Virus record (IMG/VR): IMGVR_UViG_3300020180_000069
Location: 1-34,424 of that record
Direction: 5' to 3' (one strand)
Source: a virus
Length of the DNA stretch: 34,424 nt
The notes below the pieces were generated by a model. The model searched no databases. It was not told where the DNA came from and worked only from the letters and a program-made list of their open reading frames with translations. Position 1 is the first letter of the stretch, and the number at the start of each line of letters is the position of its first letter. Below, in pieces: positions 7,158-32,594 of the stretch. Both the position numbers and the translations under genes were made by a program.

Positions 7158-7575
7158 GGGTGCCTTCTTCTAAATGAGCGACCACTAGTTTTTTTAATTC
7201 ATCGTCAGGAATTTTTTGAATGTTAGGAGGAGGATAATAAATCTCGTTTTGTTCTAGTGTTGCATCAATGAGCTTAGGAACTGGTCCAATGGCTCTGTTA
7301 AAGAGGGCTTCTAATCTACCAGGACATCCTTGTTGAACACCCTTAGCGACAATGGCAGCGAGCCAAACTTCTAGAACGGTTGATTTAGGATTATCATGAA
7401 CTTCTTTTAGTTCATCTTTGGTATAGGAAACGGTTTTATTGATAAGACGGTTGACGGAGCCTTTATCAAGTCTCGGAACCCCTTCTACTTCGGGGATAAG
7501 CTTTACAGGATGGCCGCCTAGATAAGGATGGCCCTTAACAAAATCACGTCCGCCGTATTTAGCTCCAGGTGGAAT
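7138..7575 (-). CDS. terS: Probable terminase small subunit with AUU start (145 aa)
   Basis: No ATG, GTG or TTG can start this 146-codon frame before its last dozen or so codons. A strong ribosome site GGAGGG (7582-7587) lies six bases before an ATT codon at 7575-7573, followed by PPGAKYGGRDFVKGHP, which resembles the Gly/Arg/Pro-rich start of DNA-binding small terminase or DUF5681-like proteins. The middle is helical (SVNRLINKTVSYTKDE, then RLEALFNRAIGPVPKL at about 90-105) and the C-terminus is acidic. Position before terL and the acetyltransferase fits terS, which recognises phage DNA and regulates packaging. The frame also joins in phase with the upstream 61-aa gene through a single TAG, so amber read-through is an alternative. 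Confidence 0.65.
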   Translation of the reverse strand: MPPGAKYGGRDFVKGHPYLGGHPVKLIPEVEGVPRLDKGSVNRLINKTVSYTKDELKEVHDNPKSTVLEVWLAAIVAKGVQQGCPGRLEALFNRAIGPVPKLIDATLEQNEIYYPPPNIQKIPDDELKKLVVAHLEEGTHEPTQE

Positions 7576-7581
7576 ACTCGA

Positions 7582-7587
7582 CCCTCC
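7582..7587 (-). promoter_or_regulatory. Strong Shine-Dalgarno placing an AUU start
   Basis: GGAGGG on the minus strand is followed by a six-base spacer TCGAGT and then ATT. Spacing and strength are ideal for initiation at that ATT and there is no conventional start nearby. Confidence 0.6.
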
Positions 7588-7608
7588 AAAACGCTCGTCA
7601 ACGCTCGT

Positions 7609-7794
7609 CTATTTTTGGATAATAAGGAGGTCAATTTCACGCTCTAGCCATTGTAGGCGAGCATTAATGCGTCGAGCATCTGTGACTAGCATTCCTAGTT
7701 CTTTACACATGCTTTCATATCTTTCTTGCTTGGTAGGTGCAGAGACCTCATCTTTGTCGGTCGTCTGAAAGTCTAAAACGTTATCTGTTGTCAT
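7609..7794 (-). CDS. Small coiled-coil protein upstream of terS (61 aa)
   Basis: This is a short, soluble, predominantly helical protein; residues 22-61 could form a coiled coil (heptad-like Leu/Met/Ile positions). The ATG is preceded by GAGGGG at about six bases. It ends in TAG and the same frame remains open through the whole terS coding region, so a low-level 218-aa read-through fusion is possible. A 10-bp tandem duplication (AACGCTCGTC twice, plus strand 7590-7609) sits exactly at this junction. Function is unknown. Confidence 0.6.
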   Translation of the reverse strand: MTTDNVLDFQTTDKDEVSAPTKQERYESMCKELGMLVTDARRINARLQWLEREIDLLIIQK

Positions 7795-7876
7795 CTCTAT
7801 CCCCTCATTTAACTTAGGTTGGGCGTTATGTAGTTGATATTATGAAGGAATGACGCGGAATTAGGCAAGTATAGTT

Positions 7877-8401
7877 TTAAAGGAGCACACCGCAGGAGGG
7901 GCAGTTTGTCATAGCCACTTTTTTCTCGCCTGGCTCAGATTTATCTTTTGGCTCTAGGAAGCTTTCGAAGGTCATTAATTTTTCTATGTCTTTCAATTCA
8001 AAGCCGGTCAATTCCAGATCTATGTCTTTAAAAGAATCGAGATCCAGAAGAAATTCTGTGACCATTGGCAGGTTATTTTCGCCTGCGCTTTTATTAGCGC
8101 GAAGGATGGCCATTTTTTCTTTGGATTCATCCCAATCGACTCTGCGAAAAAAAAAGCGTTCTCCTTGGTGCTCGATGAAGCCTTCGGAGACGGTGCCCAA
8201 TTCGGTGGGCGGGTCGTAGGTTTTAGTAATAGTGGGTTCTTTTAGGCCAAGAATTTTGGCTCTTTGATTACCTCCAAAAATATTGTTGGTTCTAACGTTG
8301 TGCAAAATTCCAGAAATATCACCAAAAGTGGACATGGAGTTTTTCAGCATTTCTAGGCGTTTTTCTGTAACTATACGTGGGTTTTTATCAAGTAACCGCA
8401 T
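7877..8401 (-). CDS. ParB/Srx-fold (ParB N-terminal domain-like) protein with C-terminal Cys pair (174 aa)
   Basis: Residues 1-50 carry the ParB N-terminal pattern: NPR near residue 7, an amphipathic helix KRLEMLKNSMSTFG, then IFGGNQRAKIL matching the GGHQR/GERR phosphate-binding box. The LRANKSAGEN segment at about 108-117 is also typical of ParB-like domains attached to phage methyltransferase or terminase regions. There is no room for the helix-turn-helix and dimer domain of a chromosomal ParB. The C-terminus ends CPSCGVLL, a possible half zinc site. The protein is probably a nucleotide-binding ParB/sulfiredoxin-fold protein of unknown role near packaging genes. A ribosome site with AGGGGA lies about 10 bases upstream of the ATG. 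Confidence 0.72.
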   Translation of the reverse strand: MRLLDKNPRIVTEKRLEMLKNSMSTFGDISGILHNVRTNNIFGGNQRAKILGLKEPTITKTYDPPTELGTVSEGFIEHQGERFFFRRVDWDESKEKMAILRANKSAGENNLPMVTEFLLDLDSFKDIDLELTGFELKDIEKLMTFESFLEPKDKSEPGEKKVAMTNCPSCGVLL

Positions 8402-8515
8402 TTTTAGGGTCCCCTTAAACGAAGATTGATCCTGTCAATTAGAGATCAAAACTTAAAAAAAATGAACTCTTATTACAAGTTTGTGGGGAATTTTTGTAGC
8501 TATGGTTTAGGCAGG

Positions 8516-8743
8516 TTAAGTTCCGGCGTTAAAATCGTCTTTTAATTTTAGTTCTTCCAGGTCGGATTTAAAGGGTGAAGAGCGATCGAAATTTTTATTA
8601 AGAAGTATGTCATATCGTTCTTTGATTTGTTCGAGCTGGTCAAAAGATTCTGAGTATTTTTGGTGGTTAATGATTCCAAAATAGACGCTTACAGAAAAAA
8701 GGATGGCTCCGAGTAGATAGGCTGTGGCGATTACAAATTCCAT
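8516..8743 (-). CDS. Small membrane protein with N-terminal TM segment (75 aa)
   Basis: Residues 2-25 form one hydrophobic segment (VIATAYLLGAILFSVSVYFG) and the remainder is a charged helix, giving a single-pass inner-membrane protein with a cytoplasmic or periplasmic tail. No lipobox and no enzymatic motif are seen. It lies between the zinc-ribbon protein and the ParB-like gene in the minus-strand cluster. A 114-base gap downstream separates it from the ParB-like gene and holds no further ORF. Confidence 0.6.
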   Translation of the reverse strand: MEFVIATAYLLGAILFSVSVYFGIINHQKYSESFDQLEQIKERYDILLNKNFDRSSPFKSDLEELKLKDDFNAGT

Positions 8744-8758
8744 TGGTTACCGTAGCTC

Positions 8759-8938
8759 TCAATGGGCCTTTAAGTCTTTCGATTTTGTGCTTTTGTCTGC
8801 CAACTTTTTGTCCGAACAATTTTTACAATAGGAGTCATATTTCAGAGTGTTGACCTCATACAAAATGAAGACGCTTTTAGGCATATCGAGTTCGATTTGG
8901 CATTGACTGCAACAGGTGGGCTTAACTTTTAAAATCAA
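8759..8938 (-). CDS. Short zinc-ribbon-like protein with TTG start (59 aa)
   Basis: Two Cys pairs, CSQC at about residues 10-13 and CKNC at about 39-42, make a plausible treble-clef or zinc-ribbon site, followed by a Lys-rich tail ending DLKAH. The TTG start has a textbook AAGGAG five bases upstream, immediately after the stop of the 18/19-aa ORF at 8948-9007. No other start is available that keeps both Cys pairs. Function is unknown; a DNA-binding or structural zinc protein is likely. Confidence 0.6.
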   Translation of the reverse strand: MILKVKPTCCSQCQIELDMPKSVFILYEVNTLKYDSYCKNCSDKKLADKSTKSKDLKAH

Positions 8939-8947
8939 GGTGTCTCC

Positions 8948-9007
8948 TTAACATTCGCCGTTTCCTTCTCCTAAACCATCACCATGCACGTTTTTATTTT
9001 GCATCAT
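8948..9007 (-). CDS. Tiny Gly-dipeptide ORF, short form (18-19 aa)
   Basis: The frame starts with ATGATG overlapping the end of the ribbon-helix-helix gene and encodes (M)MQNKNVHG followed by DGLGEGNGEC. The first eight residues after the second possible Met equal the N-termini of the two longer Gly-dipeptide ORFs at 9565-9798 and 9266-9565. Its stop TAA overlaps the AAGGAG site of the next gene. It may be a real micro-protein, or the remnant or ancestral form of the expanded copies. Coding is uncertain because of its size. Confidence 0.35.
   Translation of the reverse strand: MMQNKNVHGDGLGEGNGEC
8980..9006. repeat. Boundary repeat, copy 3 (27 bp)
   Basis: The 27-bp element beginning CACCATGCACG and ending TTTTGCATCA is present here, at 9541-9567 and at 9774-9800. 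On the minus strand it contains the stop of one gene (GCAAAATAA, residues AK-stop) overlapped by the start of the next ORF in another frame (ATGCAAAATAAAAACG). Confidence 0.8.
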
Positions 9008-9266
9008 CGCTGGGAGGAGGAGGATTAATTTCTCTTTGAAAGGCTAATCGCAAAAACTCTTTTTGGAGGAGCTTTTCGATAAAAAGGCTTTTGTCCGCTC
9101 TATCTCGAAGCCACTTAGCCATGAGAGGCGGAAGAGTAAATCCGACCATCACTCTTTTCTTGTCGGGACCCATGGGCGGCCTGCCCACTGAATTCTTTTT
9201 CTTCTTCTTCATAGTTTTATTTAATTTAATTTGAAGAAACTTGTCCATAAAAAACTTACCTCGCAT
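8994..9266 (-). CDS. Ribbon-helix-helix-like small DNA-binding protein (90 aa)
   Basis: A Lys-rich N-terminus and GRPPMGPDKKR are followed by a strand VMVGFTLPP and two helices (LMAKWLRDRAD, then SLFIEKLLQKEFLRLAF), the layout of CopG/Arc-type repressors. The ATG at 9266 overlaps the stop of the preceding Gly-dipeptide ORF as TGATG and has AGGAG seven bases upstream. Internal Met codons (9248, 9212) are possible alternative starts without ribosome sites. It is a candidate for the regulator acting at the inverted repeat near 10.22 kb, which is inference only. The C-terminus PPPPSDDAK shares its DAK-stop DNA with the repeat boundaries. Confidence 0.6.
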   Translation of the reverse strand: MRGKFFMDKFLQIKLNKTMKKKKKNSVGRPPMGPDKKRVMVGFTLPPLMAKWLRDRADKSLFIEKLLQKEFLRLAFQREINPPPPSDDAK

Positions 9267-9565
9267 CAGCCGTCTCCTGTTCCGTCTCCTGTTCCGTATC
9301 CGTCTCCGTCTCCGTCTCCGTATCCTGTTCCGTATCCTGTTCCGTCTCCTGTTCCGTTTCCGTATCCTGTTCCGTATCCGTATCCGTATCCGTCTCCGTA
9401 TCCGTCTCCGAAACCGCTTCCGAAACCGTCTCCTGTTCCGTATCCGTCTCCTGTTCCGTATCCGTATCCTGTTCCGTATCCGTATCCTGTTCCGTATCCG
9501 TATCCGTATCCGTCTCCGTATCTGAATACGCTATCACCAGCACCATGCACGTTTTTATTTTGCAT
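9266..9565 (-). CDS. Gly-dipeptide repeat protein B (99 aa)
   Basis: The ORF starts MQNKNVHGAGDSVFRYG and continues as about 40 Gly-X dipeptides with X mostly Tyr, Thr or Asp, and Phe, Ser or Asn in places. It is encoded by a hexanucleotide array (GGA followed by GAC, TAC or ACA). The start ATG overlaps the stop of copy A as TGATG and has AGGAG seven bases before it. Its own stop forms another TGATG with the next gene. Orientation, ribosome site and coupling favour this frame, although all six frames are open here. No known function; a flexible structural or adhesive Gly-rich peptide is one idea. Confidence 0.5.
   Translation of the reverse strand: MQNKNVHGAGDSVFRYGDGYGYGYGTGYGYGTGYGYGTGDGYGTGDGFGSGFGDGYGDGYGYGYGTGYGNGTGDGTGYGTGYGDGDGDGYGTGDGTGDG
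9270..9520. repeat. Hexanucleotide array 1 (TCC + GTC/GTA/TGT)
   Basis: About 42 consecutive hexamers on the plus strand of the form TCC plus GTC, GTA or TGT, with a few variants (TCCGTT, TCCGAA, and ACC in place of TCC twice near 9412 and 9424). The units are intermixed, not blockwise, as expected from slippage and unequal exchange. No stop codon occurs in any of the six frames inside the array. Confidence 0.95.
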
Positions 9566-9567
9566 CA
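9541..9567. repeat. Boundary repeat, copy 2 (27 bp)
   Basis: This is an identical copy of the element at 8980-9006 and 9774-9800. The similarity extends 20-30 bases further left between copies 1 and 2 (TCTGAATACG then TATCACCAG), showing that the whole unit of boundary plus hexamer array was duplicated. Confidence 0.85.
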
Positions 9568-9798
9568 GCCGTCTCCTGTTCCGTCTCCTGTTCCGTATCC
9601 TTCTCCGTCTCCGTCTCCGTATCCTGTTCCGTATCCTGTTCCGTATCCTGTTCCGTCTCCTGTTCCGTATCCGTATCCGTATCCGTCTCCGTCTCCGTCT
9701 CCTGTTCCGTATCCGTATCCTGTTCCGTATCCGCTCCCGCATCCGTATCCGTATCTGAATACGATATCACCAGCACCATGCACGTTTTTATTTTGCAT
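9565..9798 (-). CDS. Gly-dipeptide repeat protein A (77 aa)
   Basis: This is a paralogue of the ORF at 9266-9565: MQNKNVHGAGDIVFRYG, then about 30 Gly-X dipeptides (Tyr, Asp, Thr, with one Cys, Ser and Glu) ending GDGTGDG. It begins inside the last codons of the DUF6948-type gene (11-base overlap) in a different frame, with only a weak GGA nine bases upstream, and ends in TGATG with copy B. One hexamer near 9736 changes GGA to GGG, silent in this frame. Whether it is translated is unproven. Confidence 0.45.
   Translation of the reverse strand: MQNKNVHGAGDIVFRYGYGCGSGYGTGYGYGTGDGDGDGYGYGYGTGDGTGYGTGYGTGYGDGDGEGYGTGDGTGDG
9570..9752. repeat. Hexanucleotide array 2
   Basis: About 30 hexamers of the same family as array 1 (TCC plus GTC, GTA or TGT; variants TCCTTC, TCCGCT, CCCGCA). 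It is bounded on both sides by the 27-bp boundary repeat. Length differs from array 1, so copy number has changed since duplication. Confidence 0.95.
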
Positions 9799-9800
9799 CA
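9774..9800. repeat. Boundary repeat, copy 1 (27 bp)
   Basis: The first copy in the direction of minus-strand transcription, overlapping the last codons and stop of the DUF6948-type gene. The gene C-terminus (TDTADAK) has the same T-D-T-A-D-A-K sense as the acidic frame of the arrays, suggesting that the hexamers expanded from this gene's 3-prime end. Confidence 0.85.
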
Positions 9801-10153
9801 GCCGTATCCGTCGTCTCTTCATCTTCGATAAAATTCAAAAAAGTAGCCTCGGCCTTGGGTGTTGTCGGGATAAATTCGATAACGTTTGTTAAGTAAACTT
9901 CGTTAGTCCGATTGAGTCTTCCACCTTTGATTCCGTTATTCGCGACTGCGCTTAGGCTTAAGCCTCCGCCTTCCCATTTCCAGAGCCTTAGGGCGTTAAC
10001 GAGCCTGGCTTCGCATCCGTTAATTTCCACAACGTCGCCGATGTGAACCCCCGCCGAATAAGTTCTGAGGATGCAGCGGCGGTTAAGCATAGAATGCTTA
10101 CCTACGCTGCCGGTCTTCATTTCCTGAATTTCTTTTTTTTGATTTAAAGTCAT
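9788..10153 (-). CDS. DUF6948-like protein (121 aa)
   Basis: The core ILRTYSAGVHIGDVV, then RLVNALRLWKWEGGGLSLS and VIEFIPTTPKAEA, matches the small family I know as DUF6948 (YSAGVH-G, RR-W-WKGA-tLS, EiiP), found in phages and bacteria and of unknown function. The family core ends near residue 108; the acidic tail EDEETTDTADAK is extra. The ATG has AAGGAG seven bases upstream. It is the first long gene of the minus-strand transcript. A 20-bp copy of its start region occurs 43 bases upstream (see 10177-10196). Confidence 0.72.
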   Translation of the reverse strand: MTLNQKKEIQEMKTGSVGKHSMLNRRCILRTYSAGVHIGDVVEINGCEARLVNALRLWKWEGGGLSLSAVANNGIKGGRLNRTNEVYLTNVIEFIPTTPKAEATFLNFIEDEETTDTADAK

Positions 10154-10196
10154 GTCGATTCTCCTTATTAGTTTTGTTTTTTTGATTTAAAGTCAT
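10098..10196 (-). other. Possible upstream leader ORF (32 codons)
   Basis: A duplicated copy of the next gene's start (MTLNQK) has its own TAGGAG site about 10 bases upstream and reads 32 basic codons (MTLNQKNKTNKENRHD and on) in a different frame, overlapping the start of the DUF6948-type gene. It could be a regulatory leader peptide or simply a by-product of the duplication. Confidence 0.3.
10134..10196. repeat. Direct repeat of a gene start (20 bp, 43-bp offset)
   Basis: The 20 bases at 10134-10153 (seven T, then GATTTAAAGTCAT) recur exactly at 10177-10196. On the minus strand both read as ATGACTTTAAATC plus an A-run, each preceded by a ribosome site. Confidence 0.9.
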
Positions 10197-10213
10197 AAAG
10201 TTTGATCTCCTAT

Positions 10214-10242
10214 AAATTACATTAATTTAATCTAAATGTAAA
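10214..10242 (-). promoter_or_regulatory. Candidate promoter for the leftward transcript
   Basis: On the minus strand TTTACA (10242-10237) is followed after 17 bases by TAATTT (10219-10214), directly preceded by TG. The elements are weak matches to sigma-70 consensus but lie upstream of the first ribosome site and overlap a perfect inverted repeat. No other promoter-like pair is evident between here and the first gene. Confidence 0.4.
10217..10241. promoter_or_regulatory. Inverted repeat, putative operator
   Basis: TTACATT at 10217-10223 and AATGTAA at 10235-10241 form a perfect 7-bp inverted repeat with an 11-base spacer. It overlaps the -35/-10 region of the candidate leftward promoter, the standard position for a repressor site. 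The phage encodes at least two ribbon-helix-helix-like proteins (8994-9266, 11442-11639) that could bind it. Confidence 0.45.
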
Positions 10243-10283
10243 CTTACCTACTCGCTTTTTAAATCCTTTTTTCTCTCTCTATC

Positions 10284-10289
10284 TATAAT
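10284..10289 (+). promoter_or_regulatory. Perfect TATAAT, possible -10 of rightward promoter
   Basis: TATAAT is present on the plus strand with no good -35 at 16-18 bases. Its last base is the first base of the parS-like site, so a protein bound to that site would cover the transcription start. Promoter activity is uncertain. Confidence 0.3.
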
Positions 10290-10304
10290 GTTTCACGTGG
10301 AACA
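10289..10304. promoter_or_regulatory. parS: parS-like centromere site
   Basis: TGTTTCACGTGGAACA has the reverse complement TGTTCCACGTGAAACA, an exact 16/16 match to the published bacterial chromosomal parS consensus TGTTNCACGTGAAACA. It is the only such match I found in the window and lies in the divergent regulatory region. Chromosomal ParB clamps load at such sites. The phage ParB-like protein at 7877-8401 lacks room for a parS-binding domain, so host ParB is the more likely partner. Confidence 0.7.
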
Positions 10305-10353
10305 ATGGTCTTACCACTAACCCCTTAATTTCATTAGCCTTTTTAGCCCCCCC

Positions 10354-10382
10354 TTGACCCTTTCTTAATAACCCCTTATTAA
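10354..10382 (+). promoter_or_regulatory. Candidate rightward promoter, possibly giving a leaderless mRNA
   Basis: TTGACC at 10354-10359 and TATTAA at 10377-10382 are 17 bases apart. Start of transcription would fall at about 10389, the ATG of the first plus-strand ORF, which has no clear Shine-Dalgarno sequence. Confidence 0.4.
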
Positions 10383-10388
10383 GATTAT

Positions 10389-10622
10389 ATGGAAAATAAG
10401 TCACCGAAAACCTACTCAGACGAGACGTGTATCGAAATTTACAATTATGTTTATAAAGATGGTGAGACACCGACAGTGCTTTATGAATTTTACATGCACG
10501 ATATGCCCTATGGAACGGCGAAGGCGAGGGATGGAGATCCTGATAATTGGCTCGCCGGTCGAGTGGAAATGGTTGAGGAAGATTTTTCTGAGGAAATTGA
10601 GATTGGTAGAAATCTGCGTTAA
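10389..10622 (+). CDS. Hypothetical acidic protein (77 aa)
   Basis: This is the first gene of the rightward cluster. It is a small acidic protein rich in Asp, Glu and Tyr with no recognised motif, no signal and no membrane segment; the C-terminus is strongly acidic (EEDFSEEIEIGRN). It may be translated from a leaderless transcript. Small acidic early phage proteins often inhibit or mimic host nucleic-acid-binding factors, but nothing specific supports that here. Confidence 0.55.
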   Translation: MENKSPKTYSDETCIEIYNYVYKDGETPTVLYEFYMHDMPYGTAKARDGDPDNWLAGRVEMVEEDFSEEIEIGRNLR

Positions 10623-10643
10623 CGAATTGAAAGGACCGAAATC

Positions 10644-10943
10644 ATGACTAAAAGCGAAATAGGGGAATTGATTAAGAACTTTGAGAATCTTCGGATTGAG
10701 ATTGAGAAGATGAACGAGCATAAGCGGTCGATTCAAGAAAAGCTGACTCGGCTTGTCGAGGATGGGGCTACTTATGGGGATTTTAAAACCACTCTTAAGA
10801 TCTACCCAGAAGGCAATAAGTATTTTTCATGGTCTAAGGCAGAGGAAGGACTAACGGAAGCGGTTTTAGAGAAGATTAGGCCCTTTTTAAAGGTCTCCGA
10901 GAGAGTGGTTTTAAGCTTTAAATCTATGGTGAGTTATGACTGA
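10644..10943 (+). CDS. Hypothetical protein with N-terminal coiled coil (99 aa)
   Basis: Residues 1-37 form a charged helix with coiled-coil character (ELIKNFENLRIEIEKMNEHK). Residues 40-99 alternate strands and helices (YGDFKTTLKIYPEGNKYFSW). A GAAAGGA site lies upstream of the ATG. The end overlaps the next ORF by eight bases in another frame. No family recognised. Confidence 0.6.
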   Translation: MTKSEIGELIKNFENLRIEIEKMNEHKRSIQEKLTRLVEDGATYGDFKTTLKIYPEGNKYFSWSKAEEGLTEAVLEKIRPFLKVSERVVLSFKSMVSYD

Positions 10944-11100
10944 GGTTAGGAATGCCCCTAAAGGGCTCTATTCGCCCCTAGAAATTGTGGAGATGGTGAG
11001 CGCCATGAAACTTAGCCTAGGTAGAGAAATAAGCCGTGAGGAGGCTCTGGAAGCTTTAGAAGCGATGGATGAGTTTAGGGTGCGTAATGGGCTCGATTGA
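10936..11100 (+). CDS. Small helical protein (54 aa)
   Basis: ATG at 10936 overlaps the end of the preceding gene; the frame encodes a compact amphipathic helical protein (IVEMVSAMKLSLGREISREEALEALEAMDE split over two helices). The end overlaps the next gene start by 14 bases. GGTGAG a few bases upstream serves as ribosome site. Overlaps on both sides and good composition support it as a real gene, function unknown. Confidence 0.5.
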   Translation: MTEVRNAPKGLYSPLEIVEMVSAMKLSLGREISREEALEALEAMDEFRVRNGLD

Positions 11101-23445: not shown

Positions 23446-26400
23446 TCACTTATTTTGTATTCGTTCTATCTGAGTCTCCCTAGACCCAGATAATTCTAAA
23501 TTCTCGATCCCACTAGCATTCTGACCATCTTGAGGCTCAGAAACCATGAAATTGTTTTGTAACATATTTATAAAGTTTGGCTTCATCACATCATCAAGCG
23601 GAACTTTAAATAAAATGCTTAATTGAATGCGCTTCGCATAAGGAAGCTCCTCATTTAAAGCCGAGGCTTTCTCCATTACTAGCCCTTGAATCTCTGCATA
23701 AAGCTTGGGATAAACCGCTTCTATCGCATTGACCGCCTCATGCGTTAACGTACCTTTTTTTAAATCATCTAAAACAGAAAGAGGGTCTAAGACAGCAACC
23801 ACCGTTCTTTCCCATTTAGCCAATTGAAAATCAGAAGGATTCCATGGGCGCTTACCAAACATTCCTAAGCCAGGATTTTTTGGCGCGGCTTCGTAAATAT
23901 ATTGAAGACCAGTCATGGCTTGCATAACCATCGATTCATTTACTTTCGGAGCTACCGTAGAAATCGCATAAAGATTTTTTGAAAGTATTTCTGCGACTAA
24001 ATATGGATTAGAAGAAAGACGAGCGAGTTCTTCCATTCGATCTTTATAAGCTTCTTGTCTAGAGCTTTCTGATTTAGACCTCTTGCCGTTAAAACTGGTA
24101 TTCCCTAAAATAGTTACAGAAACAGGCGTAATCAGTTTTGATAAATCAGATTTATCGGAGATTTGAGAGCCAGTCACTGCGCTTAATTCCACCTTGGCTT
24201 TAACTTTTTCTGTAGCACCAGCAACGTTTTTAACAAATCCATTTAAAGAAGAAGAAATTCTTTTATTCACGCTCATCGTCATTCGCTCTAGAGCTGCTAA
24301 TCCCTCAACTAAATTTCCAGGATTATTCAGAAGCTTTAAGCCGTAAACAATTCCAATTCCTAAAGGACCACCTACCGCGTAAGAAACAGCTCCCGTTAAT
24401 ATATCGGCAGGAGATAAACCTAAACCTTCTCCGCTCTTCAAAGTCTTTAAATCCGACCTCTTCGAAGCCTGTTCAATCAAATTTTGAATGTGCTTAGTAA
24501 AAGCTTCATTAGGAGCGCCACCCCTAGATAAAATAGGATTGTTTTTTACTAATTCAGAGATCTCGGGAGTCATAGTCGAGATCTCATCCACTTCGCCCAA
24601 TAAACCCTTAGAAGAGTCTAAATATTTTAAAAGCACGTCGTCTTTAATTGAATTATTCGCGCTATCTACATTTCTTGAGTATGAATTAACTTTGATCGGA
24701 GCGATTTTATATTCTATGGCCCCGCTTTTGCTAACGGATTTAACCATGAATTCTTTTTTAAAAGCTTCCTTAGCTTGGTAGAAACTTGAGAGCTTGGCAT
24801 TCACCGATTGCTGAGCTACCGCAGCAGGCCCATAAACAACAGGATTTTCTAAATGGTCTTTAAAAGCTCGCCTTACTTCTCGAAGACGATTTATTGCCCC
24901 TTCTTCTTCAGAAGTAACATTTCTTCCAAACTTCGCGAAGTCATCAATCGCTTTTTTGGTGTCATCAATAGCATTAAACATTTGAAATGGTGTTACTGAA
25001 TCGTCTAATCGAGTATCCATGCCAGAAAGAGCTATTTCTAATTTTCTAGCTACGGAAGGAGCGAATAAATCAGGCTCTCGCCGCATCTCATTAATCGCTG
25101 CCTTAGTTTTGTTTCTTAAATTAATCGCTGAGTTTTGAATTCGGGTCATTTGCTCAACAGGATCTTCTATGCCTGAATCAATAAGATCTTTAACTTTTTG
25201 CCCAAGCTTGCCCGTATCAATGCCTAGAAGCTCATTATAGGCCTGAAAGTTTTTTGCTGTTTTTGATACCGCTGGGTCATCTATATTTAATAAAAGATTT
25301 TGAATCTTCTTTTCTGAGACACCCTTAGACGTTACACCATAGAAAGATAGCTTTCTTTCGAGAGCTTCTAAAGTTCCTAATCTTTCTGAAATAACTTTAA
25401 ATTCTGGAACTTTAGCTGATATCGACGTTTCTAATTGTTCTATGACTAAGGCATAGTCTGAAAGAACTTCAGCCTTAACCCCTGTTTTGATCGCTTTGGA
25501 AGACTGCGCCGCATTTCTATTGGCTTTGTGTTGTTGCAGTAATAGAAATTCTTTTTTGATTTCTGGATCTTTTAAAAAAGAGGAAAGCTTTCTTTCTTCT
25601 TCCTTAACAAAAACTTTCCTGGCGGCCTCAATTTCTGCTTTTGCTTTAGGTCCAGGATTAAAGATTAATTCTAGCTCCTTAGCAGGGATAGGCTCAAAAA
25701 GAGTTTTTCTTTCTAAAGGCCTAATCGTTTGATTTACAATAGAGGCGACGTCCTCCATGTGGGTGTACTGTTCATCTAAAATATTCGTGAGTTCTAAAAC
25801 TCTTTCTTCAGCCTCTTTTTGTGGCAAAGTCGCCAGACGTCTGCCCGCTGCACCTTCTTTTTGAAAAGGTTTTTTGAGCAGGTCTTTTAGAACTTCTTCA
25901 TCTTGACCAGAAAACTTTGATGCTACCTTGGCCACCCCTTGGGCCGCAGAATCTAAAGCACCTCCTGTCAAATCATTAAGACCTGTAAATGCCCTATTGG
26001 TAGCACTTTGAGCTTTTCTTAAAAGAGATGGTGCTGCTGGCCTAATCGCGCCTAATGCTCCACCTAAACCACCGCTTAAAACAGTAGAAAGACCGATGGT
26101 GGATAAAACCTTCTCAGCCGTTAAGTCAGTATCTTCTCCAATCGCTAATTCAGAAATTAACTGACCTCCACCATAAATCGCACCCTCAACTGCAGACCCT
26201 GCACCTGTTGCGAGCCCGCTCTCTAAAACCTTCTTAGCTGTCGACTTAGAAGCGTCTGATACAAATTGCTTTGCCACCGCTTTTTCAACGGCTAAGCCAG
26301 CTTTGCTTGCTCCTATGACACCTTTACCAGCGGTTTGAACTCCCTTAGCGAGAAGTCCAGTGCCTCCACTTAAAAGTAATGGGGCTACCACCGCAGCAAC

Positions 26401-26682
26401 TTCTGAGCCAGTTGAGGCGATTGGATTATATTCTTCTAATTTTCGGAGTGTTTCAGGTTCCACTAACCCTGTTTGAGTTAATGCAACGTCAGACAATCCG
26501 AAAGATGCGCCTCGAGCGGCACCTGCTAAGCCAGCTGCAAAAGGTCTATCGTATTCAATTTCTTCTTTTTCTAGGCGTGCAATGTCCTGATCAGAAAGAA
26601 ATCCTTCTTGAGTGGGCTCCTCGGAAGGCAAAGAGGCTTTCTCTAACTCCGAGATCTCTAAGTCTGTGAGGAATTTCGCCAC
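23446..26682 (-). CDS. Large internal virion (DNA-ejection) protein (1078 aa)
   Basis: This is the largest helical protein of the window, third in a run of three genes after the tail hub, as for the internal core/ejection proteins of podoviruses. The N-terminus has acidic helices, then GLAGAARGASFG and Gly/Ala-rich hydrophobic stretches at about 90-120, 160-215 and 770-790 that could insert in membranes; the remainder is long charged helices. No lysozyme or transglycosylase motif found. A GTG at 26682 is chosen (MAKFLTDLEISELE), one base after the upstream stop; TTG at 26694 would add four residues. Confidence 0.72.
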   Translation of the reverse strand: MAKFLTDLEISELEKASLPSEEPTQEGFLSDQDIARLEKEEIEYDRPFAAGLAGAARGASFGLSDVALTQTGLVEPETLRKLEEYNPIASTGSEVAAVVAPLLLSGGTGLLAKGVQTAGKGVIGASKAGLAVEKAVAKQFVSDASKSTAKKVLESGLATGAGSAVEGAIYGGGQLISELAIGEDTDLTAEKVLSTIGLSTVLSGGLGGALGAIRPAAPSLLRKAQSATNRAFTGLNDLTGGALDSAAQGVAKVASKFSGQDEEVLKDLLKKPFQKEGAAGRRLATLPQKEAEERVLELTNILDEQYTHMEDVASIVNQTIRPLERKTLFEPIPAKELELIFNPGPKAKAEIEAARKVFVKEEERKLSSFLKDPEIKKEFLLLQQHKANRNAAQSSKAIKTGVKAEVLSDYALVIEQLETSISAKVPEFKVISERLGTLEALERKLSFYGVTSKGVSEKKIQNLLLNIDDPAVSKTAKNFQAYNELLGIDTGKLGQKVKDLIDSGIEDPVEQMTRIQNSAINLRNKTKAAINEMRREPDLFAPSVARKLEIALSGMDTRLDDSVTPFQMFNAIDDTKKAIDDFAKFGRNVTSEEEGAINRLREVRRAFKDHLENPVVYGPAAVAQQSVNAKLSSFYQAKEAFKKEFMVKSVSKSGAIEYKIAPIKVNSYSRNVDSANNSIKDDVLLKYLDSSKGLLGEVDEISTMTPEISELVKNNPILSRGGAPNEAFTKHIQNLIEQASKRSDLKTLKSGEGLGLSPADILTGAVSYAVGGPLGIGIVYGLKLLNNPGNLVEGLAALERMTMSVNKRISSSLNGFVKNVAGATEKVKAKVELSAVTGSQISDKSDLSKLITPVSVTILGNTSFNGKRSKSESSRQEAYKDRMEELARLSSNPYLVAEILSKNLYAISTVAPKVNESMVMQAMTGLQYIYEAAPKNPGLGMFGKRPWNPSDFQLAKWERTVVAVLDPLSVLDDLKKGTLTHEAVNAIEAVYPKLYAEIQGLVMEKASALNEELPYAKRIQLSILFKVPLDDVMKPNFINMLQNNFMVSEPQDGQNASGIENLELSGSRETQIERIQNK

Positions 26683-26683
26683 G

Positions 26684-28348
26684 TTATTCTGCAACCTGTT
26701 CTTGCCACTGGTTATCGCCTACTTTTTTGTAAGTCTTGCCACCGATGACTTTTACTTCTTCACTAGAAGCCGCGCCTGGGTTTAATCCCTTACTAAGCGA
26801 TAGATTTTGGAATCCGCTATCTACTAGTTTTTCAAATGCTCCTAACTGAGCCATGGTTGATCCCGTCCATTCAAACTGAGTAGGATCTGCCGGCATTAAT
26901 TTATCCAATAAATCTTGATCCGATTTAGAAAGAACTCCGAGTTGAGCGATATTCTTATATTTTAAAAGCATATCGGTAGCTATAGTTTTGGCTTCTGCGA
27001 CCACCGCTCGATTAGATAATTCAGATCCGTACTTCGTTCTAATCTCTTTCAAGCGATTGATGCCTTGCTTAACAGAATTTCTATCCGAATCAGCTTTCTT
27101 TAATTCCTTCGCATCGTCTGCGGTCAAAGCGTATTGCTTTAACCCTGGCACATACTTATCCGCATTTAAATTAGCTGACTTTGCCTTCGTGTCTGAAATC
27201 TCAGCCGAAAGCTTTGCGAATTGCATAGCTTCTTTTTGTTGCTCTACTGATAAAGCACCTTGAAGTTGGCCTATTTTAGCAGTCGCTTCTTTTCCACCAT
27301 ATTTCGCAGCGACTTGGTCTAGCTTTAGCTTCTGAGCTTCTATGTAATACTGACGAGTGGCGGAGTCTGCCAACCTATCGTCTCCAAACTTCTGTCTCAT
27401 TATTTGATAAACATTTGACTCGGCATCTACTAAACCTTTTTTCTTAGAAATCTCTTCTTTTTGAGCATCAATATCTCTATCGATAATGCGATTGAGAACA
27501 TCAAGAGCCTGGTTATTGCCAGTTCTAGACATTGCTTGGCCAGCGGCTCCTAGGGCTAAGGAAATGCCCATCAGGATTTCGTTACCAGCACTCATTCTTT
27601 TCCAAACCCGGTTAGGGTCCATGTCGGATTTTCTTAAATCATCTTTCGCCACATCTATAATTTTCATTTGATTATCGAGAGTGGTTTTAGCTTCGTTTTC
27701 TCGCTCTAATCTTTTAGCTTCTACATCGGCTAGGTTTTTATCTAGTTGTTCATAGTAACTAGCCGTTTCATTCGCTTTTTGTGTGGCGATATTGGCTTGC
27801 TGTTGTAAGGAAGATTTTTGCTGATTATATCCTGGAGAAAGAGCGTTCAAATAAGGCTCATTTAAAACTTGGCCTTCTATAGCTACCTTTTTAGTAGGAT
27901 CAGCACTTCCAACATTTCTATCAGCTGCATTTCTTTCTTCGACTACAGCTTGTGAGGCAGCAACGTTTTCTTTCTCTTTTGTAGATAGATATTCTTTTAA
28001 TCTTTTCGGCTGTGGAGGAACAGGTAAACCCATTTCTTCTGCCTTCGATTTATAAAGATTGTAGTTATTAGCTAGATTGTCTAAATCCTTCGTTTCTTTT
28101 TGCTTTTTAAGCTCACCTATCTCAGTCTGTTTTTGCTTAATAGTTTGCAGATAATCCATCGATGGAAGCTTTTCTTCAAAACCAATTTGAGGATTAGCCA
28201 TCATGCTCTTCGCCGTCGATTCTGCCGTCATATAATCTGGCACGAAAGCAGGTGGTGGAACCGGATTAGTTTGAGCCGTTCCAGAGAGAACCTTCTTTAA
28301 GTATTCTTCATCTGGATCTGGAACCGAGGAATAAAGTTGTTCAGCCAT
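26684..28348 (-). CDS. Internal virion protein, coiled coil (554 aa)
   Basis: The protein is Gln/Lys/Glu-rich and almost entirely helical. Long coiled-coil segments cover about residues 60-110, 170-270 and 330-450, with a short Gly/Ala-rich hydrophobic patch (LMGISLALGAAGQAMS) at about 255-270. The second of three ejection-type proteins. The C-terminal segment GGKTYKKVGDNQWQEQ is typical of phage internal or tail proteins. Function in DNA ejection is inferred from synteny and composition. Confidence 0.7.
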   Translation of the reverse strand: MAEQLYSSVPDPDEEYLKKVLSGTAQTNPVPPPAFVPDYMTAESTAKSMMANPQIGFEEKLPSMDYLQTIKQKQTEIGELKKQKETKDLDNLANNYNLYKSKAEEMGLPVPPQPKRLKEYLSTKEKENVAASQAVVEERNAADRNVGSADPTKKVAIEGQVLNEPYLNALSPGYNQQKSSLQQQANIATQKANETASYYEQLDKNLADVEAKRLERENEAKTTLDNQMKIIDVAKDDLRKSDMDPNRVWKRMSAGNEILMGISLALGAAGQAMSRTGNNQALDVLNRIIDRDIDAQKEEISKKKGLVDAESNVYQIMRQKFGDDRLADSATRQYYIEAQKLKLDQVAAKYGGKEATAKIGQLQGALSVEQQKEAMQFAKLSAEISDTKAKSANLNADKYVPGLKQYALTADDAKELKKADSDRNSVKQGINRLKEIRTKYGSELSNRAVVAEAKTIATDMLLKYKNIAQLGVLSKSDQDLLDKLMPADPTQFEWTGSTMAQLGAFEKLVDSGFQNLSLSKGLNPGAASSEEVKVIGGKTYKKVGDNQWQEQVAE

Positions 28349-28351
28349 AAA

Positions 28352-29233
28352 TTAAGCCTTTCCTGCGAATGCTGCGCCTACACCTGCCGCTGCTCCCAGT
28401 ACTGGCCCAACTACCGTTTGCATTAGTCCAGGCGTGCTATGTGATGCTGGTGCTAAACCCGCTCCTATCGATTGCCGTTGTAATGATCCACCTTGTTTCA
28501 TTTTCTCTAGCTCAACTTGAGCTGCCATTTGAGCTTGATCCAAGTTCATTCCTGCACTCGTGTAATATTGAATCAATTGGTTTACCATTTGCTGCTCATC
28601 TACAGCTTGGCCTCTACCTTGTCCTATTTGACCACCTAAGGCTTGCTCGGCAGCGGCTTGCTCTTGTGCTCTAAGAACTCCAGCTTGACCCATCACATCC
28701 CCTTGCATCGCTGCATTTTGTCTTAAAGCTTGTCGTGCAAGAGCTGTAGAATTTCCTCTACCAGAATTAGCTAAGGCAAAGTTTTGAGCCATGCCTTGTT
28801 GCATTCCTCTTTGCATTTGAAGCTCCGCTGCCGAGGGAGCTAATCCAGCTGCTCTATTTTGTAATTGAGAAATTAAACCTTTTTGAGCCCCACCATAATA
28901 TTGATCTACTGAGCTTCCTGCACCAGTGGCACCAGCTGCTAAGCCTGATCGAGTAGCGTCGTATTTAGGGATATTAAAAGCCGCTTCATTAACTTTGTAG
29001 CCTGTGTCTTGTAAAACTTGCTGAGCCTCGAACATTCGTTTCGTAGCTTCATAGGGTTCTTCTCTTACGCGCTGGCCAACATACTCAGCCCTCGACCCTT
29101 CGGGAGCCTGAAAATAAGGAGATGCTTTTGGCAATAACGCTAAGTAGCCAGGAGGTTGATTCTGAGCAGGTTGTTGCACTTGCTGTTGGGTGCTACTCGT
29201 CATCATAATCTTTCGGCGTTCTTCTTCTGTCAT
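28352..29233 (-). CDS. Internal virion protein, Gln/Ala-rich (293 aa)
   Basis: ATG at 29233 (MTEEERRKIMM) follows AAGGGGGAG and is preferred over a longer frame that would overlap the tail hub gene. The protein is rich in Gln and Ala, with helical QARQAALRQ-like repeats and a Gly/Ala hydrophobic C-terminus (VVGPVLGAAAGVGAAFAG) that could span a membrane. First of three ejection-type proteins after the tail hub gene. Confidence 0.68.
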   Translation of the reverse strand: MTEEERRKIMMTSSTQQQVQQPAQNQPPGYLALLPKASPYFQAPEGSRAEYVGQRVREEPYEATKRMFEAQQVLQDTGYKVNEAAFNIPKYDATRSGLAAGATGAGSSVDQYYGGAQKGLISQLQNRAAGLAPSAAELQMQRGMQQGMAQNFALANSGRGNSTALARQALRQNAAMQGDVMGQAGVLRAQEQAAAEQALGGQIGQGRGQAVDEQQMVNQLIQYYTSAGMNLDQAQMAAQVELEKMKQGGSLQRQSIGAGLAPASHSTPGLMQTVVGPVLGAAAGVGAAFAGKA

Positions 29234-29243
29234 AAACTCCCCC

Positions 29244-32200
29244 TTAAGCTCTCTTTGTGTAAGGCAACTTACTAATGCCTTTTTTAACTCCAACAATTAA
29301 AGTTAGATTAGTTAACGTGTTACCTTCTAAAAGGTCCCCCGATACCGCAGAATCAACAATCTTAAATCGAATTGCCGAGCACTTTTGATTCCCTATCTGA
29401 AATTCAAATTGAAGTGGATCTCCTGAAGCCGGTGTAAACGTATAAGTCTCTGCATACGAGGTGCTATAGTCATAGCCCACCGAGACGTTAAGCGTATGGG
29501 CTGATTTATATTGCCCTAAAATGATCGCTCTTTTGACTCTCTGATAGCCCTGAATTCCACCAACATTAATCCAGCCTGTTTCTAGGGAAGTGGTGAAGTT
29601 CGTTGGTGCTAAACTAGCATCTATATTTTGAAAACCAGAGGATTGTAAATAAACGCCGGAAGATGAATTACATATCAATGCGATTGAGTCTTCATAAATT
29701 AACATATCAGAAATGGCCGTTATCTCGGTGAAAGTTCTATAACTCCACTGCTGAAAATCATAGTCGTAAATTAAAATGGTGCCGTCATCTAAGAGAAATC
29801 TTACTTGAGCCAAGTCTGGAGTTTTAATCGCACTTAAAACTTTTTGAGCCTTCTTGTTTTCTACATCGGCACCTATAAACGCCGATTCAAGAGATCTTCC
29901 TAAAAGATAAATTCCTTTAGGACTTGAGAACATAACCCCTTGAGGAATCTCTACGGATGAGCCAGTGTCTCTACCACCCACAGGACAAAGAATAGGCTCT
30001 GGATTAGAAAAAGCTCCACCTTCTCCTAAGTTGTTAGGTCCAGATCCTATAAAGTAAAAAGTCCTTTCCTCATTTAAAATAATAAATTTCTCATCGATAC
30101 TAAAAATATCGATCAAAGATTTATTAGTTCTCTCGACCTCTATGGTGAATTCAGCAGGGAATGAAGCTTCTAATCCTCTCTCAAGAGGTTTAGAAAAAAT
30201 GACATTATTTTGATCTGAATCAATACCAAATATTCGATTGGATATTAGTCTTAATTGTCTCGTAGGAGGGACGTTCGCATTTTCTAAAATGCCCCCGGTT
30301 GTATAAAGTACTTCATTGTCAGATATTTCGGCATCTGACTGCGTATCCAATAGCTGAATAGGCGTATTCGTAGAAACTTGATTATAAATTGGCTCCGAAT
30401 CAGGAGTTATTCTATAAAAAGGACTCCCCGAATTTACTAAGGTTCTATATAAAACAAGTTTTATACTTGTCGGGCGATCCGAAACGGTAAACGGTTCTTG
30501 ATCTATTCTAAAACTCGTGGTGGCAGATGCTGAAGTGAGAAGGTAGGGAACACTTGGAGCGCTTCGATGGAGATTACCTTGAAAATCTATAAGCTCTCTT
30601 ACGACAACATACTGATAATTTCCAGTCGCAATTCTTCCTAGCCCTACTGTAATATTTGCGGCGTCTGCCACAACTCCATTCCCACTATTAGTAATTCTAA
30701 CAACATTTCCCGTTACAATTGGGGTCGTGAGTGTTGCAACAGTGTCCAAAACGGTAGCTAATTTTTGAGCCACTTCAGCCGCCGAATCAGTCCCAAATAT
30801 TGTAACTGGTCCAGTTGAGGTCCTGCCTCCTGGTATTGGGTCCGTTCCAGATCCGTTCTTTATAAACCAAGTATAATAAGAAGTGGTCGTGGTCGTGAAA
30901 TTGAAATATTGACCACCTGCTATATAAGCGCCAGCGCTACAAGTAATGTCTGTTATTTCTCGGACCCCCGCCGTACCTTGTTGAGCTATCGATATTGTAA
31001 AATTGCTAAGAGATATGGTCGTGGATGTGCTGCTGGAAATAATTTCAGGATAAGAATGAAATCCAGCCTCTCGAACAGATTGGCCATCAATTACTTTTGT
31101 AACTCCACCCGTCAAATACGTTAATTTATCTAGAGATACGGATTGCGTCTGAATATCCGAATCAAAATCTACGGTTATGATTACGCCACCAAAATTAGAA
31201 CTTACTACATTTCCGTCTGGATCAGATGTTGGGTCAACAGTCTCTGTTATTTGCTTAGTCTTCGCTTGGACTGGTATATAAAATTGACCAGACCCATCGG
31301 TAGATATGAAAGGAATCCCAGAGACTGAATAGCTCCAATCCCCCTGCCTATCGATCAAGGCCTTTGCCACTATTCTTCTATTTAATCCTAGAAAACTACA
31401 TACATAAGCAGCGCCTTGAAAATCAGATTTCAATATCCCTATAAAATAGGCTTCTGATCCATAGACAAACGCCTTAGAAACAATCGCGATATCTTTATGA
31501 ATAAACGTATAAGTTCCGACAACTCCTGCAGATGTGAGGGTGACGGAGTAAATTCCATCACTATCATCAGCCACCCAAGTGATTTGAGTACTTGAATTAA
31601 AAGCCCCGATCATTTGTGTCGTGGCACTTCTATCTCCAGAGCTTGGCTGAGGAAAATTCCATGATGTGGTTAGCGTTGTCTCAGCGAGTGTCCCTGTTAA
31701 TGAGGAATCAAATACTTGTGCGTAAAGAGTCGTAGAAGATGATAAGCCATACGTGACCCATATTGTTCCAGTTGATGAATTTTCTACTATCGACAATGCT
31801 GTCGTATTCTGTGGAGTCGTGGCCGTGAGGGTCACCGTATCGACCTCAGCAAAACTCGTGTTATAAGATTTAATGATTAAACCGCCAGTGCTGACATCTC
31901 TATAAAAAACTTTGAATGTCGTATCATTATATGAAACATCATAAATAATTATGGTTCCGCCAATATCAGCGGTCAACGAACCTGGGCCGCCAGCAGATTG
32001 GCGTCCTATAACTGTATATTGTGCAAAGCCTACATTAGTGGCGTAGTAGACTACTGTCACGGCCGGATCTCCGTTTGAATCAAGTCCGAAAGTAAAAGCC
32101 TGAAAAGAATCGGCGCTTGCGGACAAGGTTCCGCTGTTTATAAGAGTGCCTGATGAAGCGTCGCTGGAAAACCAGTTCAACTGGCCAGTAGATAATAAGA

Positions 32201-32594
32201 ATACTGATATATAATAATCGCCATCTGCACCCGTTGATAGCAATACAGATTTAAAGCCTTTGATTGAAGTACTGTCACCAATCATTTGGTCGACGGAAAT
32301 TTGTGTTTGAGTATGTGCACCTATTAAACTTAACCCCGCTAATTCAGGTGAATAACCTAGAATGAAGCCAGAACTAGTATTATTAACACACAAGACATCT
32401 TTGAAAAGAAAGCCCTTCGACGAAGCTAAAGTAAAAATCTGACTAAACCCAAAATCTTTTTTTAGTTGTTTGGCTTTAGTAAAAACACGATTTACTAATG
32501 AGGAAAGCTTAGTGCCTATCACTTGGGCAAAATCGCTCTTCTGATCAACCCCTTGACCAAAATCTATCGAAACTTTCTGATCTTCTGTCGCCAT
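29244..32594 (-). CDS. Tail tube / tail hub protein (1116 aa)
   Basis: The beginning (VSIDFGQGVDQKSD...) and the late region RQLRLISNRIFGIDS, IDEKFIILNEERTFYFIG, and YDFQQWSYRTF correspond to the large tail tubular or hub proteins of podoviruses (T7 gp12-like, P22 gp10-like), which are beta-propeller-like and sit below the connector. The centre is a Ser/Thr-rich repetitive beta region (about 130-650), longer than in the T7 homologue. It begins at TAATG with the upstream gene. The function is inferred from order: connector, small protein, this gene, ejection proteins. Confidence 0.75.
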   Translation of the reverse strand: MATEDQKVSIDFGQGVDQKSDFAQVIGTKLSSLVNRVFTKAKQLKKDFGFSQIFTLASSKGFLFKDVLCVNNTSSGFILGYSPELAGLSLIGAHTQTQISVDQMIGDSTSIKGFKSVLLSTGADGDYYISVFLLSTGQLNWFSSDASSGTLINSGTLSASADSFQAFTFGLDSNGDPAVTVVYYATNVGFAQYTVIGRQSAGGPGSLTADIGGTIIIYDVSYNDTTFKVFYRDVSTGGLIIKSYNTSFAEVDTVTLTATTPQNTTALSIVENSSTGTIWVTYGLSSSTTLYAQVFDSSLTGTLAETTLTTSWNFPQPSSGDRSATTQMIGAFNSSTQITWVADDSDGIYSVTLTSAGVVGTYTFIHKDIAIVSKAFVYGSEAYFIGILKSDFQGAAYVCSFLGLNRRIVAKALIDRQGDWSYSVSGIPFISTDGSGQFYIPVQAKTKQITETVDPTSDPDGNVVSSNFGGVIITVDFDSDIQTQSVSLDKLTYLTGGVTKVIDGQSVREAGFHSYPEIISSSTSTTISLSNFTISIAQQGTAGVREITDITCSAGAYIAGGQYFNFTTTTTSYYTWFIKNGSGTDPIPGGRTSTGPVTIFGTDSAAEVAQKLATVLDTVATLTTPIVTGNVVRITNSGNGVVADAANITVGLGRIATGNYQYVVVRELIDFQGNLHRSAPSVPYLLTSASATTSFRIDQEPFTVSDRPTSIKLVLYRTLVNSGSPFYRITPDSEPIYNQVSTNTPIQLLDTQSDAEISDNEVLYTTGGILENANVPPTRQLRLISNRIFGIDSDQNNVIFSKPLERGLEASFPAEFTIEVERTNKSLIDIFSIDEKFIILNEERTFYFIGSGPNNLGEGGAFSNPEPILCPVGGRDTGSSVEIPQGVMFSSPKGIYLLGRSLESAFIGADVENKKAQKVLSAIKTPDLAQVRFLLDDGTILIYDYDFQQWSYRTFTEITAISDMLIYEDSIALICNSSSGVYLQSSGFQNIDASLAPTNFTTSLETGWINVGGIQGYQRVKRAIILGQYKSAHTLNVSVGYDYSTSYAETYTFTPASGDPLQFEFQIGNQKCSAIRFKIVDSAVSGDLLEGNTLTNLTLIVGVKKGISKLPYTKRA

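Follow-up and report, generated by a model that had tools for sequence, protein, structure and literature searches.

A recurrent phage gene pair of DUF6948, with a predicted Sm-like fold, and a glycine-X dipeptide protein encoded by hexanucleotide arrays

The DNA analysed here (the window) is a 34,424-nt virus record, IMGVR_UViG_3300020180_000069, with the terminase, portal, major head protein and Erf annealase genes of a tailed phage. On its minus strand, a 121-aa gene of the DUF6948 family (gene A) is followed, in the order of transcription, by GX1, GX2, a 90-aa ORF and GX3. The features of the locus are:

9788 to 10153, minus strand: gene A, DUF6948, 121 aa, with a predicted Sm/LSm-like fold (PF22253, E 3.2e-20; AlphaFold2, Foldseek, VIA)
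9565 to 9798, minus strand: GX1, Gly-X dipeptide ORF, 77 aa, translation MQNKNVHGAGDIVFRYGYGCGSGYGTG...
9266 to 9565, minus strand: GX2, Gly-X dipeptide ORF, 99 aa, translation MQNKNVHGAGDSVFRYGDGYGYG...
8994 to 9266, minus strand: 90-aa ORF between GX2 and GX3, with later candidate starts at 9248 and 9212
8948 to 9004, minus strand: GX3, a third mini-copy of 18 aa, MQNKNVHGDGLGEGNGEC, opened by the third exact copy of a 23-nt leader
9270 to 9755, no strand assigned: hexanucleotide array (Tandem Repeats Finder), reading GGATAC, GGAACA and GGAGAC on the minus strand
9563 to 9567, minus strand: TGATG stop/start overlap from GX1 to GX2, with AGGAG at 9573-9577
9264 to 9268, minus strand: TGATG stop/start overlap from GX2 to the 90-aa ORF, with AGGAG at 9274-9278
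9776 to 9798, minus strand: leader cassette, copy 1 (ATGCAAAATAAAAACGTGCATGG)
9543 to 9565, minus strand: leader cassette, copy 2
8982 to 9004, minus strand: leader cassette, copy 3

GX1 and GX2 share the start MQNKNVHGAGD-VFRYG and continue with glycine alternating with Tyr, Asp or Thr. In the long run of GX2, a hand count of the 41 X residues gave 16 Tyr, 11 Asp, 10 Thr, 2 Phe, 1 Ser and 1 Asn. The periods of the array (12, 18 and 36) are all multiples of 6, and both TGATG junctions read AGGAG-ACGGCTG-ATG. The first-pass annotation, which was made from the window alone, had already placed the Gly-X ORFs, the hexamer array and the TGATG overlaps with AGGAG seven bases upstream, and in this it was right for both junctions. 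Its description of two paralogous ORFs with a shared leader holds for GX1 and GX2, but the leader ATGCAAAATAAAAACGTGCATGG is present three times, the third copy being that of GX3. No AGGAG site precedes GX1. Instead, the GX1 start falls within the 3' end of the DUF6948 gene (10153-9788), the key neighbour that this annotation had lacked. The stop of the 90-aa ORF, for which a family search gave no match, is supplied by the GX3 leader. Gene A ends in TTDTADAK. Since its relatives finish at about ...FIED, this C-terminus looks like array-type DNA read in a different frame.

Several other features of the window may be recorded. Gene A is partly duplicated at its 5' end (10139-10199, minus strand): its initial 20 bases (ATGACTTTAAATCAAAAAAA) recur just upstream, and the duplication gives rise to a small ORF that overlaps. 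At 8759-8938 (minus strand), an AAGGAG lies 3' of the GX3 stop and before a 59-aa ORF with a TTG start, and GX3 may be coupled to this further gene. A search of window positions 7500-11000 against Rfam gave zero matches. The presumed tail region (23446-32594, minus strand) contains several large genes of 1082, 554, 314 and 1116 aa; all but the 314-aa protein are without a match in PHROGs.

A cassette was taken to be a same-strand Gly-X ORF that overlaps or abuts the end of a DUF6948 gene; the window has this arrangement, with the GX1 start 11 nt inside gene A. Among 114 distinct DUF6948 cores, the 97 with at least 250 bases of downstream sequence could be assessed for it, and an adjacent Gly-X array on the same strand was found in 96 of them (93 by script and three, L046, L142 and L158, by reading of the loci). 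The sole exception, L201, is a truncated DUF6948. The reverse search started from a DNA pattern for GYGYGYGDGYG only, so that DUF6948 played no part in finding the arrays. In a first pass, DUF6948 was nearby in 31 of 60 arrays and missing in 29, most of which have a divergent DUF6948 sister (hhalign E 5e-6; two of five sisters tested exceed the Pfam cutoff). With both models, a DUF6948-superfamily partner lies within 1 kb on the same strand in 47 of 53 arrays, a locus set slightly different from that of the first pass, compared to 28% of random positions in the same stretches; for the other six arrays there is no partner at this threshold.

DUF6948 relatives are present on 571 IMG/VR contigs. 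In a set of bacterial and archaeal genomes, an alignment-based contig search identified 38 DUF6948 loci, and a search of such contigs with a single protein identified none. In a separate sample, one of 299 genomes contained DUF6948, a rarity that fits a phage gene. Cultured examples are the Pectobacterium phages Sabo, Taid, Koroua, Ymer, Abuela, Amona, Pappous and Setonix, Iodobacter phage phiPLPE, Chlorobiaceae phage CV-1-33 and Vibrio phage IKEMa6-1. A DNA search of an annotated phage collection with the locus, and a search of IMG/VR for the exact leader, returned nothing. In some loci (L234, L276, L286, L296), a small N-terminal domain (type ADDIIRAGAC.DGV or SIADAIEAGA) is fused to the front of the Gly-X array, and a gene of the DUF6948 superfamily lies upstream. 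In others (L277, L311, L264), a third divergent family (AGGFYFFGNEV...NAAMFGGFSGGKGMPG) is found near Gly-X arrays, and is perhaps a further DUF6948 relative.

The hexamer arrays leave other reading frames open as well, and openness alone is therefore no proof of coding. The ends of the arrays are more informative. A stop codon within two codons of the array end is present in the Gly-X frame in 59 of 97 loci, and in the other two frames in 2 and 9. At the 60 near-stop loci, all five hexamers before the stop have the GG, and at 58 of them only zero to two of the five after it do. Gly-X starts lie inside the DUF6948 ORF in 93 of 103 cases; they are mostly ATG, often after a GGAGG-like site. Over 116 arrays with 3141 units, X is Ser (33%), Tyr (28%) or Asp (23%) in most cases, and 24% of the X residues are acidic, 31% aromatic and 0.8% Lys or Arg. 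All four glycine codons are used, 44 of the 116 arrays mix them, and serine is encoded by both TCY and AGY. We regard the DUF6948/Gly-X pairing together with the Gly-X coding frame as well supported by these comparisons, and have very little doubt about either. The data support the view that the Gly-X ORFs behave like real genes, and they are probably translated.

An antisense (Pro-X) reading was ruled out, as no locus has a longer Gly-X run on the antisense strand. Deposited annotations do not always follow the Gly-X frame: in Chlorobiaceae phage CV-1-33, the array is annotated in the wrong frame (MAMAMALA...). Wrong-frame annotations of this kind were seen at L043:4283-4528 and L046:1505-2077, in the case of L046 with one fused to DUF6948. 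The Gly-X proteins have no meaningful match in PADLOC, PHROGs or NCBIfam; weak matches to TrAA12 and ser_rich are low-complexity artefacts.

The first-pass annotation had proposed that array lengths vary by multiples of six with the Gly-X frame kept, and that copy number varies too. Both expectations were borne out in relatives. The Gly-X ORFs of the eight Pectobacterium phages range from 162 to 270 nt, and all differences are multiples of six. Among the relatives as a whole, which do not include close relatives of the window itself, we found 38 length-differing pairs with near-identical flanks, with differences that are all multiples of 3 and nearly all multiples of 6. Metagenomic pairs agree with in-frame length change, although repeats may be shortened during assembly. 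Between Abuela and Amona, there are 0 substitutions in 2300 upstream positions and 31 in 2000 downstream positions, yet their arrays are 12 unit edits apart, out of about 30. Taken together, the sequence comparisons show reciprocal pairing, an overlapping start, a kept frame and length changes by whole hexamers. Any benefit to the phage from varying array length is hypothetical.

Three Gly-X ORFs are present in L007, four each in L033, L037 and L040, and eight in L038, several of them with overlapping stop and start codons. In view of this recurrence, the duplication of the Gly-X gene to three copies in the window phage is one case of a recurrent design. The flanks of Pappous and Abuela are 6% divergent upstream and differ at 1 of 2000 positions downstream, and Sabo and Setonix are divergent in the downstream flank; mosaic joints therefore lie at the Gly-X array or close to it. 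Such joints of mosaic recombination between phage lineages were noted in L041, L047 and L086-L091. L022/L023 contain three dispersed silk-like GAGAG arrays (GX ORFs near 4004, 5230 and 8916/9024), with copies that have a common C-terminus, TYAPPTEMECTTPYMTDKTEWLRLREKLIEATT. A diversity-generating retroelement as the source of X variation was put aside, because X in the Pectobacterium phages is almost wholly Ser, Tyr, Asp and Phe and not of a wide NNY spectrum. The arrays resemble the in-frame coding tandem repeats of low-complexity prokaryote and phage proteins (PMC6821194) in having a unit that is a multiple of three, so that slippage keeps the frame. They differ in that the Gly-X protein is array throughout past its short leader, and is tied to one partner gene.

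Genes near the cassette mostly belong to early recombination, replication and regulation (RecT, exonuclease VIII, Sak4, Gp157, SSB, methyltransferases, repressors). The pair of the Pectobacterium phages forms a short unit, preceded by a promoter-like site (a match at chance expectation only) and followed by a terminator-like hairpin.

Gene A belongs to PF22253 (DUF6948), to which Pfam assigns no function, with a score of 72.5 bits against a curated cutoff of 27. Its AlphaFold2 model, built from a 60-sequence alignment, has a pLDDT of 92, and its best 50 Foldseek PDB and VIA matches are all Sm/LSm proteins (best Foldseek E 1e-3; VIA Z up to 9.1, where values of 8-9 are only slightly over the tool-reported background of 7-8). 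The sister subfamily, modelled separately (pLDDT 92.5), also matched Sm/LSm proteins (Z up to 8.7), among them the Sm-like protein of PDB 3by7 (Z 7.7). The latter, from an uncultured source, represents the Sm-like proteins of phages and metagenomes, to which the predicted fold of the DUF6948 sister family is similar. The models predict that gene A shares the five-stranded bent barrel of the Sm fold. Sequence comparison did not reveal such a relation. In hhalign, DUF6948 scored against the archaeal Sm profile equal to or worse than shuffled controls, and a Pfam search of DUF6948 gave no LSM match and a weak SM-ATX match in 4 of 60 members. The RNA-contact motifs Sm1 DxMN and Sm2 RG are not conserved in DUF6948, as judged from the A2 invariant columns and, by eye, from the predicted loops. 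Since both the Sm profile and the RNA-contact motifs gave negative results, gene A is not filed here as an Sm protein. PADLOC had no match for gene A, GX2 or the Sabo pair, and a link of DUF6948 to Gly-X genes or to the Sm fold was not found in the papers searched.

The closest analogy is Hfq of Acinetobacter baumannii, which has an Sm core and a disordered C-terminal domain of GGFGGQ repeats with an acidic tip, and for which repeat number matters for function (PMC11617691). What the two have in common is an Sm-type fold combined with a disordered chain that is acidic, repetitive and rich in Gly. In the phages, however, Gly-X alternation is strict and the putative tail has an overlapping gene of its own. 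DUF6948 is phage-borne, its RNA binding is conjectural, and it has no detectable sequence homology to Sm proteins or Hfq. In the account that we favour, DUF6948 would form an Sm-type ring or barrel, and the Gly-X protein would dock on it via its short basic/hydrophobic leader (MSKLxKP, MxNLLKIKxRHHG, here MQNKNVHG). The tail that it would then supply would be long and disordered, with abundant Gly, Ser/Thr, Tyr and Asp, and could make many weak contacts. Encoding the tail as a separate protein would leave its stoichiometry and length free to drift, and with hexamer coding, slippage or recombination would quickly alter the length of the array and the order of its residues while leaving the frame intact. 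The pair would probably be an early-acting one, working close to proteins of recombination and replication; its target would be nucleic acid or a host machine that handles RNA or DNA. An in-frame fusion of DUF6948 to GX, which would be direct support for the tail role, was not found. We put forward this account as a whole, a conserved coupled cassette in which Gly-X is the separate disordered tail of an Sm-fold partner, tentatively and at slightly less than even probability. It is possible, with rather less confidence, to go further and suppose that an Sm-fold ring recruits the separately encoded, hypervariable two-residue-repeat polymer to form a tunable ribonucleoprotein-like body or decoy in early infection, with an array that evolves fast and keeps its frame through continual expansion and contraction.

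Other explanations of the arrays have to be considered. The Gly-X protein might work on its own, as the scaffold of a condensate or gel or as a silk-like beta polymer, and take up host or defence proteins like a multivalent sponge, with DUF6948 only regulating or nucleating it. Its Tyr/Ser/Asp-Gly low complexity, the GAGAGY-like silk arrays in L022/L023 and the stand-alone two-gene unit of the Pectobacterium phages with its promoter-like and terminator-like sites are compatible with such a role. The near-obligate pairing and the overlap with an Sm-fold gene favour a joint complex instead, PADLOC offers no match, and we think a free-standing scaffold unlikely. Slightly less likely still is selection for the change in array length or copy number itself, as in a contingency locus that would quickly switch the size or dose of Gly-X, an idea close to that of the first-pass annotation. 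The quick in-frame change between identical flanks and the range of one to eight tandem copies agree with it. However, neutral slippage of hexamers under a loose Gly-X constraint gives the same pattern, and the length changes never turn the frame off.

It is also conceivable that the array works as RNA or DNA, being two-tier G-quadruplex-prone or recombinogenic, and that the Gly-X reading is a by-product. GGN NNN coding forces a GG every six bases, array RNA folds better than shuffled sequences (z -3.5), and the mosaic joints at or near the array in Pappous versus Abuela, and in Sabo and Setonix, could be explained in this way. Yet the stops at the array end favour the Gly-X frame, and the GG periodicity ends with them; the leader, the start and the ribosome-site-like positions within DUF6948 are conserved; and X is limited to Ser, Tyr, Asp and a few others despite differing codon choices. 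A nucleic-acid element thus appears improbable. Least probable of all, and in our view very unlikely, is translational control, in which translation of the Gly-rich array would set downstream expression by TGATG reinitiation. TGATG with AGGAG at both window junctions, and the TAATG and ATGA overlaps in L007 and L033, speak for it, and coupling to the next gene had been the main point of the first-pass annotation. In general, however, the conserved coupling is to the upstream gene, DUF6948, inside which 93 of the 103 Gly-X starts lie. The Pectobacterium phages have Gly-X as the final gene and the terminator-like hairpin directly 3' of its stop, and in L035/L036 the order is reversed, with Gly-X before DUF6948.

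The first-pass annotation knew of no described phage family of this design. A search of the literature for DUF6948 and for GYGDG-type motifs likewise yielded no relevant paper, but with DUF6948 relatives on several hundred contigs the design itself is widespread. What is new is the cassette as a system: the pairing is absent from the family libraries and papers searched, and gene A falls outside the Sm proteins in two membership tests. As its components (an Sm-like fold, a coding repeat that stays in frame) both belong to known classes, one could also argue for a new variant.

The pair is common in phages and prophages of many bacterial phyla and in some archaeal genome bins, and neither the papers nor the family libraries that were searched give a function for it. 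In some GenBank records, the Gly-X gene is annotated in the wrong frame. As a fast-evolving coding repeat, the Gly-X array is usable as a population marker. The near-obligate partnership of a protein of predicted Sm-like fold with a hypervariable low-complexity protein offers a cultured and genetically simple model, in the Ymer-genus phages of Pectobacterium and in Iodobacter phage phiPLPE. Such a model would address how low-complexity tails work, and why viruses retain them.
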